DNA of 32,304 nucleotides. Source: an uncultured Alcanivoracaceae bacterium. Lineage in GTDB: Bacteria > Pseudomonadota > Gammaproteobacteria > Xanthomonadales > Marinicellaceae. The translations under genes were made by a program, and so were the position numbers. The notes below the pieces were generated by a model. The model had not been told where the DNA came from, searched no databases, and worked only from the letters and a program-made list of their open reading frames with translations. Location: NCBI GenBank assembly GCA_913061105.1, contig CAJXVJ010000009.1:1-32304 (forward strand), given 5' to 3'. Shown one piece after another: positions 10,858 through 14,840 of this stretch (its first letter is position 1; every line of letters begins with the position of its first letter).

Positions 10858-12186
10858 CTAATCAAATCCTGATGCAAAAATTGGATCATAATCGAAATCA
10901 TACACAGGCTGTAGATCTGCTCCGTTGACGACACCCAATTCTGTATAACCTGTGTATCCAGGAAATATAAAGCCTAGAAATCGATTTTGCATGCGTTTCA
11001 TTAACACTTCACTGACCACATCTCTGTAGTCAACCGTTACATCAACATCATCTTCCTGATATAATTGGTTAGTTGCTAATCCAGGGAATTGACCATGAAA
11101 TCCAGGATTGACATTGTCACCAATAATAAACATGGGGTTTCCGTAACCATGATCAGTTCCATTGCTGTCATTTTCATATGCCCTACGCCCAAACTCACTT
11201 TGAACAATTATGGTAAACTTACCAGCATTATTGGCAGATAAATCTTGATAAAGTGCCTTAAGTCCATCAGAAACTTCTTGTACTAAATTGGCAAACTCAC
11301 CAGTATCACCAGTGCCTTGCCCAATATGCGTGTCCCATCCACCTGAAGGAATATAGGCCACTTCTAAATCAACTTGTTCTTTGTACATTTGTGCTATGGT
11401 TCTCAATTGATTGCCAAAATATCCAACCGGATATTGTGCCCCATTATCTGGAACATAATTTTCCCAGTCGATGCCTTGGACTATCTGTGAAGCAAGTAAA
11501 GTTTGATTGGCCACAGTATCTTCTAGAGATGATGGTGTGTTATAAATTTCAGCAAGGGTATTTTGCATTGCAGATTCCCATGCCCAATGACCTTGGTTTA
11601 GGCTAAACTCATCGGGTGAACCCATCACCAATGAGCTAGGATTACCCAAAACTGCATCAGTATTGTTATAAGAAGGCACTACTGATGGAATCAAAGCATC
11701 ATCAGGTGTAGTCAAGGATGAATTAAAATAGCGAGTTAACCAACCTGTACCTAAATTAGAAGATGGTGTTTCTACACCTAATTCCATTAAAGCTGTAGAA
11801 ACAAAGTGGCTGCGATTGGCTTCTACTAGACCTGTAGCATGCACAATTGCCATTTTATCGTCATTAAATAAATCTCGCATACCCGTTGCATTGGGATGAA
11901 AACCGAATGCATTTTGTCCATTGAGTGGTAATGATAAATTATTGGATATATGCAATGATGGACGTAACTGTGTGGTGTAAGCTATATAATCCGCACCTGA
12001 TCTTGGTGGCATAAAGTTTAAACCATCCATGCCTCCATTGAGAAAAACATAAATTAATAAATCTTTTGAACTGTTAGTTTCACCTCCAAAGAGACCACTG
12101 CCAAATCCAACTTGAACTCCACCAAGACCTGCCAATGTGACTAATCCTGATCCTTTTAAAAATTGTCTTCTGTTTAATTTTTTCAT
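10858..12186 (-). CDS. DUF1501-family protein with Tat signal; C-terminal tail DPIFASGFD
   Basis: MKKLNRRQFLKGSGLVTLAGLGG twin-arginine signal; VFLNGGMDGLN, GGWDTHIGQG, EFGRRAYENDSNGTDHGYGNPMFIIG typical of DUF1501. Confidence 0.93.
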   Translation of the reverse strand: MKKLNRRQFLKGSGLVTLAGLGGVQVGFGSGLFGGETNSSKDLLIYVFLNGGMDGLNFMPPRSGADYIAYTTQLRPSLHISNNLSLPLNGQNAFGFHPNATGMRDLFNDDKMAIVHATGLVEANRSHFVSTALMELGVETPSSNLGTGWLTRYFNSSLTTPDDALIPSVVPSYNNTDAVLGNPSSLVMGSPDEFSLNQGHWAWESAMQNTLAEIYNTPSSLEDTVANQTLLASQIVQGIDWENYVPDNGAQYPVGYFGNQLRTIAQMYKEQVDLEVAYIPSGGWDTHIGQGTGDTGEFANLVQEVSDGLKALYQDLSANNAGKFTIIVQSEFGRRAYENDSNGTDHGYGNPMFIIGDNVNPGFHGQFPGLATNQLYQEDDVDVTVDYRDVVSEVLMKRMQNRFLGFIFPGYTGYTELGVVNGADLQPVYDFDYDPIFASGFD

Positions 12187-12192
12187 GATGGA

Positions 12193-13965
12193 CTACCTGT
12201 AGTTAAATTCTGAAGTGAGAAAAATGGTCGATACCACCGCAAATAACCTTTCTTGATTGTATCCTGGCCAATCATTGTTTGATAAATCTATGGGTGTATT
12301 TCGATCAGTTCCTTGTGGGTCTGATGTATCATCATATGACATGAAATTAGCCAATTTGTCTTGGGTATTTGAGTTGGGTGACATTCCACAAGCCCTTTCA
12401 AACCAGTAATTAACTATGTTGTTTGCCGTTCTGTCATTTGCATTTGGAAATTGATTCAATGTCATATTCAAAACATCATTGTAAGTGTTATCATTGTCAT
12501 CTCTAAATCTCGCCATCCATTGCATAAACCGCCAGGTAGACATGATGCTTGATGCACTCAACCAAGCTGCTTTTGTATCAGGATAACCATTGGGAGAAGT
12601 CCAATGAAACAAATTTTGACCGGTATTACGAAATTCCCAAAACATCCAAGATGAGTGTTCATTGGTTGGATCAAAGTCATAGGTGAAACCCATTTGTCTC
12701 ATGCTTGCAACAGTTCTTTCAAATGGGCGTTTGATCTTTTCGCCCCAAGTATTCATAAACTCAGGTGACTTTAATAATGTTTCCATTGCCAATTTAATTT
12801 GATCAGGGGCTTGCCAATTTTGATGCAATGTTTGCTTAACTGCATCGATAATTGATTGCGGTGGATTATCACTGATAAACCTCTTACACATCTTAGTGGC
12901 CAGAAATTCAGCTGTTGCTGGATGTTCTGCCAACATATCTAGTATGTCCTGCATGTCTTTTAGTTTATTATTTTGATCAAAAGTGAATGTATTGCCCATG
13001 ATTTCTTTGCTGCCTTCATCATGCCAATCATCTCGGAACAAAAATTCACCAGTAGCGATATTACCATTTTGATAATCCCACCAATCAGCTCCACTGTATG
13101 ACCAACCAGTTAATGCCCTGGCCATTTCAACCACATCAGCTTCTACATAACCCACTTTCCTGCCTTGTGCATCAAGGGGCACGTCTGCTGCTGGCATGTG
13201 GCCCAAATAGTTTTTTGCACTGATGGTATGTAGCTCAAGTAATTCTCTTGCAAAGTTTTCATTGGGTGCATCTTTGTTATTATAGGCATTGCCTAAATAA
13301 TCTAACATACAGTTCGATCTCGTCACGTCTTCAAGCATTTGTCTAAAGTTTCCCAATGTATTATTTCTGATCACATCGCGGTCATAGTGAACGAACATGG
13401 GCTGTATTCCATCTCCATCCATATACACATTGAAATGGTTGTGCCAAAAATCAGCCATGATTTCAAATAATTGTCTCTTACTTTGGATGGCCAACATAAA
13501 TGATGCATAAAAGGTTTCTCTGCCTGGTAAAATGCGGAAATCCCATTCTATTTCTCCTTCATCAGGTCTTCTAGAGTGTTGTTGATATAGCTCCATTCTG
13601 GTTTTATTGAGAGTTTGGTAACCTTGAGTCAGATTCGTTTGAGCGGCACTGTCATCAATGCTATTGGGGTTGAGTTGTTCATCAATATAGGACAATATTT
13701 TATCGTTGTCTGTGGCTCCAGATAGGGTTTGTACATGTGCAATTAATTCTGGTGTGGCTCCATAGCCCATTTTTGAAAATGCCCTGTGAAATATATTTGG
13801 TATCTGGGAACCTGCACTATTCGCTGATTCTGCTCGATTATTATGTGCCGATTGATTCCTCTTTATTGGTGCGAATTGATGGCTGGAAAAACCATCTGGT
13901 ATATTTGATTTTTCGGCCAATACCATTTCAGATTCAGTATAATATTTTCTTTTGTAAATGTTCAT
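12193..13965 (-). CDS. DUF1800-family protein
   Basis: DFWHNHFNVY, NFARELLELHTI, EMARALTGW and KRPFERTVASMR motifs typical of DUF1800. Paired with DUF1501. Confidence 0.93.
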   Translation of the reverse strand: MNIYKRKYYTESEMVLAEKSNIPDGFSSHQFAPIKRNQSAHNNRAESANSAGSQIPNIFHRAFSKMGYGATPELIAHVQTLSGATDNDKILSYIDEQLNPNSIDDSAAQTNLTQGYQTLNKTRMELYQQHSRRPDEGEIEWDFRILPGRETFYASFMLAIQSKRQLFEIMADFWHNHFNVYMDGDGIQPMFVHYDRDVIRNNTLGNFRQMLEDVTRSNCMLDYLGNAYNNKDAPNENFARELLELHTISAKNYLGHMPAADVPLDAQGRKVGYVEADVVEMARALTGWSYSGADWWDYQNGNIATGEFLFRDDWHDEGSKEIMGNTFTFDQNNKLKDMQDILDMLAEHPATAEFLATKMCKRFISDNPPQSIIDAVKQTLHQNWQAPDQIKLAMETLLKSPEFMNTWGEKIKRPFERTVASMRQMGFTYDFDPTNEHSSWMFWEFRNTGQNLFHWTSPNGYPDTKAAWLSASSIMSTWRFMQWMARFRDDNDNTYNDVLNMTLNQFPNANDRTANNIVNYWFERACGMSPNSNTQDKLANFMSYDDTSDPQGTDRNTPIDLSNNDWPGYNQERLFAVVSTIFLTSEFNYR

Positions 13966-14019
13966 TTTAGTGGCCTTAAGTTATCAATGGCTTCGATAAT
14001 AGGACATTAAATAAAGAAC

Positions 14020-14041
14020 ATTTGTGAAATCAATCACACAT
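14020..14041. promoter_or_regulatory. CRP-type operator, TGTGA-N6-TCACA
   Basis: ATTTGTGAAATCAATCACACAT region has both perfect CRP half-sites (14023-14027 and 14034-14038) with N6 spacing in a divergent intergenic region. Confidence 0.7.
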
Positions 14042-14162
14042 TTAAGTTTAACAACTTCTGTAACTTAACATTTAGCATTTATTTAACATTTATTATTTTT
14101 ATTCATGTATTATGGGCTTTATTCAAAATATCTTATTGATAGTAATCAATGCCGTATCTTTT

Positions 14163-14840
14163 ATGAAAGCCTTATTGTTATTTATTACATTAACAAGCAA
14201 TGTAGGATTATTAGTGGCTAAAACACATGATGTAATCGTATCAAGCAATGTTTTTACTCCTAATTCATTACAAATTGAAGCTGGAGACACTGTACGATGG
14301 ACAAACACTGGTGGTGGGCACAATGTCAGGGCCTCTGATGGAAGTTTTAGGTGTGCCGAAGGATGTGATGCTGAAGGTGGAAATGGCAATCCATCCTCCA
14401 CTTTGTGGTCGTTTGAAGTGACGTTCAGAACACTTGGGACAACCGCCTATATCTGTGAACCACACATTGATTTTGGTATGCAAGGATCTGTCACAGTGGT
14501 AGAACCTACAACAGTTGCCGTTCATGAAGTCCATGCCACGACAAACAATGGATTTGAGCCAAGTGACTTATCTATCCAACGAGGAGATGTTGTTCATTTT
14601 ATTAATGATGGGGGCGAACACAACATCAACTCCTCAGATGATAGTCTCATATGTTCCGAAGGCTGCCTTGGAGATGGAACCAATACAGATAATGAGCCTA
14701 CTGGTTTTGGTTGGGATGTTTATGTTCGATTTAACCAGATTGAGGAAATCCCCTATTTTTGTGCTGCCCATGAAATATCAGGCTCACCTGGAATTATTCA
14801 CGTTATAACTGATACTTTATTTGCAAGTGGATTTGAATAG
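14163..14840 (+). CDS. Exported protein with two tandem cupredoxin-like domains; C-terminal tail DTLFASGFE
   Basis: Signal peptide from ATG 14163 (MKALLLFITLTSNVGLLVAK). Domain 1 has GGGHNV and CEPHIDFGM, domain 2 has GGEHNI and CAAHEISGS. The ORF track start at 14112 is an alternative. Confidence 0.85.
   Translation: MKALLLFITLTSNVGLLVAKTHDVIVSSNVFTPNSLQIEAGDTVRWTNTGGGHNVRASDGSFRCAEGCDAEGGNGNPSSTLWSFEVTFRTLGTTAYICEPHIDFGMQGSVTVVEPTTVAVHEVHATTNNGFEPSDLSIQRGDVVHFINDGGEHNINSSDDSLICSEGCLGDGTNTDNEPTGFGWDVYVRFNQIEEIPYFCAAHEISGSPGIIHVITDTLFASGFE

Follow-up and report, generated by a model that had tools for sequence, protein, structure and literature searches.

A nine-residue C-terminal tail on unrelated exported proteins of a Marinicella relative: a probable sorting tag that co-occurs with the type II secretion system

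Introduction

Why do exported proteins of unrelated fold end in the same few residues? The question is raised by a 32,304-nt stretch of DNA, called the window below (contig CAJXVJ010000009.1, positions 1-32,304, forward strand), from an uncultured relative of Marinicella, in which a DUF1501 protein ends in DPIFASGFD and a tandem cupredoxin in DTLFASGFE. An earlier note on this DNA suggested that the tail may be a sorting or processing signal, plausibly with a dedicated recognition partner. Our computational analysis shows it to be a tag under protein-level selection. It is almost restricted to exported proteins, the folds of which are unrelated, takes the place of other sorting signals on a given parent domain, and co-occurs with the canonical type II secretion system (T2SS) inside the order of the host. 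The tail is very probably a sorting or secretion signal, and our reading, to which we assign a probability of roughly 0.55, is that it is a C-terminal sorting tag by which proteins are directed past the outer membrane, most likely via the canonical T2SS.

The recognition of diverse folded substrates by the T2SS is a long-standing open question; the recruitment signals are described as unresolved, and the prevailing view is that the substrates share no linear signal (PMC7949064, PMC12369372). The tail, nine residues long and present on dozens of unrelated exported proteins, lends itself to deletion, mutation and grafting, which would make this question directly testable in non-pathogenic marine bacteria. 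Even if its reader is not the T2SS, the tail would represent a widespread, undescribed sorting signal that is present in two phyla and on up to ca 100 proteins per genome. It would allow surface and secreted proteins to be recognized from sequence, and it would point to a novel receptor.

Results and Discussion

The tail motif

Four proteins of the window carry the tail. The DUF1501 protein (10858-12186, minus strand; PF07394, 4e-24), which has a TAT signal (TAT_signal, TIGR01409), ends in DYDPIFASGFD, the tail and stop codon occupying positions 10858-10887. The Sec-exported tandem plastocyanin-like protein (14112-14840, plus strand; PF00127, 4e-20, two stretches) ends in ITDTLFASGFE, with the tail and stop at 14811-14840. 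The third carrier is a choice-of-anchor J/Cleaved_Adhesin protein (29909-31690, minus strand; NF038128, 3.9e-17, 62.9 bits, over cut-off; PF07675), whose ending DIVFVSGFESD (29909-29944 including the stop) has the motif two residues from the end. The fourth is an M28 aminopeptidase (5444-6814, minus strand; PF04389, 1.6e-31), distantly related to the Legionella LapA model NF045908 and below that model's cut-off; it ends in the variant DLIFMNSFDSINP (5444-5485 with the stop). All four tails had been proposed in the earlier note, the span of which (10861-14837) excludes the stop codons, and all of them are indeed in frame, either close to the stop or immediately before it. The folds are unrelated and both Tat (DUF1501) and Sec (cupredoxin) are used for export, as had also been claimed.

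The tail is predicted to be unstructured. In the AlphaFold model of the DUF1501 protein the last two blocks have pLDDT values of 65 and 41, compared to ca 93 immediately upstream, and for the tandem cupredoxin the values are 71 and 53, compared to ca 95-98 in the second domain.

In the 3.59-Mb host genome, the DNA pattern [x]-F-x-x-G-F-[DE]-stop has 47 matches, with a true stop verified in 46 of them, while the reversed pattern has none; a relaxed pattern gives 49 matches, again with none for its reverse. When up to six residues are permitted past the D/E, the fetched DNA contains 51 tailed proteins, and the consensus is D-x-I-F-x-[NSD]-G-F-[ED]. The conservation extends to residues that the search did not impose: D at -9 is found in 40/51 tails, I at -7 in 47/51, and N, S or D at -4 in 50/51, the latter adjoining the G at -3 that the pattern did impose. 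The last residue is exactly D or E in 45/51. Variant tails in the host genome have S, D or E in place of the glycine.

The synonymous codons differ among the tails, with all four glycine codons being used, and the DNA downstream of the stop is unconserved. This indicates that selection acts on the peptide, and it rules out a DNA repeat or mobile element as the origin of the shared endings. An internal position of the core motif, far from the C-terminus, was seen in just two of 267 open reading frames (ORFs) of the sampled stretches. One of these is an N-terminal hydrophobic stretch, and the other is a duplicated tail in a protein (L093:8668-10134) that ends in FLFKNGFE-AIID-LIFENGFE-stop, FLFKNGFEAIIDLIFENGFE. 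The latter looks like a buried tail that has been renewed at the end, a natural hint that the terminal position matters.

Export and architecture of the carriers

A signal-peptide-like N-terminus, called by a simple heuristic rule, is present in 36 of 39 tailed ORFs as compared to 78 of 228 others (P=3e-12), where the data come from genome-wide pattern searches plus fetched stretches picked around tails, so that the background set is biased. The enrichment on signal-peptide proteins anticipated in the earlier note is thus found. Of the three tailed ORFs missed by the rule, two have a signal sequence that is visible at their start, and in the third the true start may be missing. Both Sec and Tat proteins are among the carriers, and none of the 39 has a lipobox. 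By the same heuristic call, the tailed proteins have the features of T2SS substrates, that is, an N-terminal Sec or Tat signal on a folded soluble protein.

In an alignment of the 39 proteins no column is invariant except for F, G and F in the tail. Among the domains of these proteins are S8, M36 and M14 peptidases, beta-helix, FG-GAP, Kelch, cupredoxin, DUF1501, MauG and choice-of-anchor I, J and Q (NF038117, 512.7 bits, and NF041518, 137.2 bits, both over cut-off). The M36 carrier is close to models of peptidases that depend on the type IX secretion system (T9SS), on rhombosortase and on myxosortase, and it matches the T9SS-dependent model just up to position 779 of 869.

The earlier note was also right that the tail lacks a transmembrane (TM) helix and a basic cluster. 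In 37/39 proteins, no 17-residue window within the last 35 residues reaches a mean Kyte-Doolittle value of 1.5, the ending being polar or acidic, and 28/39 have no K or R among the last six residues.

In the window, a DUF1800 protein (12193-13965, minus strand), the partner of the Tat-exported DUF1501 protein, lacks both a recognizable signal peptide and the tail, and it may hitch-hike on its partner during export.

Parent domains and distribution

The claim that homology of the domains cannot explain the tail is borne out by the homologues in other taxa, which have different endings. Marinicella-like DUF1501 proteins end in IFASGFD or nearly so, and nearly all Marinicella-type ones keep the tail, while homologues from Acidobacteriota and other groups have a longer tail or another ending. 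Cupredoxin relatives of the same lineage keep the tail as well, whereas two relatives have a T9SS domain and one has the long form described below. The clearest series is that of the choice-of-anchor I proteins, in which a common end, SHEDTGTIAIY or TNEVSGTTTIY, precedes IFKNGFE in Marinicella-type proteins and PEP-CTERM in cyanobacteria, while other proteins have IPTL-like tails or, in one case, the long-form tail at this place. Since the same domain end carries different sorting signals across taxa, the tail occupies the place of a sorting signal.

In a survey of 291 gammaproteobacterial genomes, the host is alone in having more than three tail matches. Within its order, many families have ca 5 to 59 tails per genome and other families have none. 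Of 15 genomes tested, 13 have between 16 and 98 copies each of the long form, [IL]FxDGFESGDTSAWSxxxP-stop, for which the reversed control gave no matches; its hosts are Acidobacteriota, for the most part Thermoanaerobaculia and Holophagae, and a single deltaproteobacterial metagenome-assembled genome. The long-form motif is at most 12 residues from the end in 67 of 79 closed reading frames, and 36 of 43 long-form proteins appear to be exported.

Co-occurrence with the type II secretion system

Two type II secretins are encoded in nearly all tailed genomes of the order, and one of them sits in a gspC-D-E-F operon. In the host this operon, which encodes a GspC with a PDZ domain, lies outside the window (G000:C35:4535-10087). 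In several relatives the operon is near genes that were identified by eye as trx/rho/rhlB-like and ftsEX-like. Within the order, the canonical type of GspE is cleanly separated from the rest (at least 505 bits vs at most 440). Among 100 genomes, at least three tails are found in 45 of the 57 with the canonical T2SS and in 5 of the 43 without it (P=1.4e-11). For near-complete genomes the corresponding numbers are 34/46 and 1/38, and the canonical T2SS is thus present in 34 of the 35 near-complete tailed genomes of the order. With families as strata the association is retained (P=4.5e-4), and families f2 and f192, in which solely members with the canonical T2SS have at least three tails, look like independent cases.

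A difference is also seen within the T2SS-positive genomes. The 22 genomes in which the GspC PDZ domain has a strand at the place of NGKxVGVRL contain 1-59 tails (median 18.5), compared to 0-6 tails (median 0) for the 14 genomes in which this strand is missing, with a P value of 1.5e-6 that ignores kinship.

Proposed mechanism

In the mechanism that we favour, a tailed protein would first cross the inner membrane via Sec or Tat and then fold. In the periplasm the exposed tail would next act as a linear recognition element for, most likely, the canonical T2SS (gspCDEF), and the outcome would be crossing of the outer membrane or display at the surface. The co-variation within the order tips the balance somewhat towards the T2SS as the carrier of the tailed proteins. 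The likeliest reader would be the PDZ domain of GspC, in line with the finding that the PDZ domain of EpsC is fully required for one Vibrio substrate, VesB (PMC12369372); that GspC reads the tail directly is nevertheless a tentative proposal. Equally speculative is the wider picture in which the tail would be the first known linear, transplantable C-terminal T2SS signal, read by the GspC PDZ domain in Xanthomonadales-type bacteria, with the longer form serving another outer-membrane route in Acidobacteriota.

It is important to point out that several observations weigh against delivery by the T2SS and reading by GspC. Canonical GspE is found in 174 of the 291 gammaproteobacterial genomes (E<1e-120), of which the host alone exceeds three tails. 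The T2SS is thus widespread in Gammaproteobacteria without tails and is not sufficient, and the same is seen in genus g249 (family f189), which has the T2SS and almost no tails. In the opposite direction, genome G384 (family f188; L128-L141) has 7-10 tail matches, most of them on real C-termini, while canonical gspE, gspD and gspC were not detected in it; this is either a genuine exception or an assembly gap. Acidobacteriota-type long-form genomes are mostly without a recognizable GspC and without a GspD over the cut-off. The loss of the GspC strand may have been a single event. Furthermore, the motif is sometimes followed by up to nine extra residues before the stop, which speaks against a simple reading of the terminal carboxylate. 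Finally, GlyGly-CTERM proteins also co-occur with the T2SS, yet their direct partner is rhombosortase (Haft and Varghese 2011, PMC3237569), so that T2SS co-occurrence alone cannot identify the reader.

Two extensions of the proposal were considered and abandoned. GspC as a universal receptor is unsupported in the long-form panel, where PF11356 matches in only one of the 15 genomes; this model misses divergent GspC, and the tail-less Xps-type genomes tested also score nothing with it. A tail-specific T2SS subtype was hinted at by the order-level survey, and the class survey showed the system to be of the canonical gammaproteobacterial type.

Alternative explanations

The most serious alternative, which we consider less probable yet by no means negligible, is that sorting or anchoring depends on a dedicated partner (a protease, a transpeptidase or an outer-membrane receptor) that reads the tail and acts together with the T2SS or after it, in the manner of rhombosortase and GlyGly-CTERM. 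The [NSD]-G pair, with its nearly invariant first position, would then be a plausible cleavage or ligation site, although the variants with S, D or E for the glycine do not fit this well. The precedent just mentioned favours this explanation, and so do the T2SS-positive genomes without tails, which indicate that something else is needed. On the other hand, no candidate for such a partner was found. Two C25 (gingipain-like) peptidases flank the gspCDEF operon of the host (L098:19-1692 and L098:11367-16070, contig C35), out of five C25 matches in its genome, and a PorU-like role as sortase was considered. It was rejected, since these peptidases are missing from many tail-rich genomes, namely the g241 genomes tested, G378, G294 and G367. 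Clustering of the ORFs of 80 long-form loci gave no recurrent gene beside the tailed ones. Of the original suggestion, sorting is well supported, by the export bias and by the exchange with other sorting signals, while the best candidate for the partner, by co-occurrence, is the canonical T2SS, with the reservation that this system is widespread without tails.

A second and rather unlikely option is that the tail is the detached first beta-strand of a jelly-roll of the CBM_4_9/choice-of-anchor type, which would dock onto a surface protein devoid of that strand and supply it by strand addition, or else a relic of such a domain. It arises because the long-form motif FxDGFESGDTSAW, or FxDGFESGDxSxW, is also the N-terminus of ca 200-residue jelly-roll-like domains in Chloroflexi, Armatimonadetes, Actinomycetota and others (L145, L169, L179, L188, L194, L195, L197, L207), and in two of seven stretches of this kind there is a match to CBM_4_9 in its N-terminal part. 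These matches are weak (E 0.005-0.01, below cut-off). A relic would not persist with conserved residues on ca 50 unrelated proteins, and no strand-lacking receptor was identified. As to its origin, the similarity suggests that the tail may descend from, or imitate, the first strand of a jelly-roll-like domain.

The tail might also be a lineage-specific tag for periplasmic quality control or protease recognition, with no role in outer-membrane sorting. Periplasmic PDZ proteases recognize C-termini, and the position of the motif, at most ca 10 residues from the stop, would suit them; DegS is one example of such a protease (PMC12369372). We regard this as very improbable, as it leaves unexplained both the replacement of PEP-CTERM-like signals on choice-of-anchor proteins and the co-variation with the T2SS. 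Lastly, an origin of the shared endings in chance, in parts of the domains or in mobile DNA can practically be dismissed, given the 47 matches against none in the reversed control, the homologues that are tail-less or have other tails, and the variable codons and unconserved downstream DNA.

Comparison with known sorting signals

The closest parallel is GlyGly-CTERM/rhombosortase (TIGR03501; PMC3237569), which is likewise a lineage-specific C-terminal tag on many unrelated gammaproteobacterial exported proteins, co-occurs with the T2SS and is present on M36 peptidases. It consists, however, of a motif, a TM helix and a basic cluster, none of which is found in the present tail, and it occurs on at most 13 proteins per genome rather than on dozens. 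PEP-CTERM/exosortase resembles the tail in its dozens of copies per genome and in its place on choice-of-anchor I proteins, while the tail has no PEP motif, TM helix or basic cluster. MYXO-CTERM/myxosortase (PMC11980579) also reaches dozens per genome in its own lineage, and the relative of the M36 carrier has a myxosortase-dependent counterpart model; it differs by an invariant Cys and a tripartite architecture, the tail having no Cys in its consensus and no TM segment. Neither the LPXTG motif nor its TM and basic cluster architecture is present. The T9SS C-terminal domain (Por_Secre_tail, PF18962) is, like the tail, a non-TM C-terminal signal for passing the outer membrane, and in other taxa it is present on related cupredoxins and on choice-of-anchor I proteins; it is, however, a Pfam-recognized domain and not nine unstructured residues, and its model has no match in the window carriers. 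Closest to the proposed mechanism is recruitment by the GspC-type PDZ domain, which decides the secretion of some substrates (EpsC-VesB, OutC-PelI; PMC12369372, PMC7949064); the known determinants there are structural loops or an Ig fold, and no common linear C-terminal motif has been described.

The tail thus acts like a C-terminal sorting signal, yet it does not have the tripartite architecture of PEP-, GlyGly- and MYXO-CTERM or LPXTG, and it is not a T9SS domain. No Pfam or NCBIfam model matches at the tail in the window carriers, and no NCBIfam model does so in the long-form DUF1501 homologues. Among the 25 most frequent Pfam and NCBIfam families listed for the 39 tailed proteins there is no PEP-CTERM family and no other CTERM-type model. 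A search of solved structures for the tail gave chance matches only, and a full-text search of open-licence PMC, which accounts in subscription journals would escape, gave no paper on the motif.

Other shared endings

Two further kinds of ending were observed on exported proteins of the host. Several of them (L092:7498-8769, L031:1266-2351 and L032:1744-3135) share [IV]M[IV]LVY or MTILVY immediately before the stop, which is possibly a second tail class or else a paralogous family. Two others (L083:11205-12020 and L041:3149-3847) end in PVPVELMNFSID and LPVELQKFEIK, which resemble the PVELxxF stretch known from secreted proteins of Bacteroidota.

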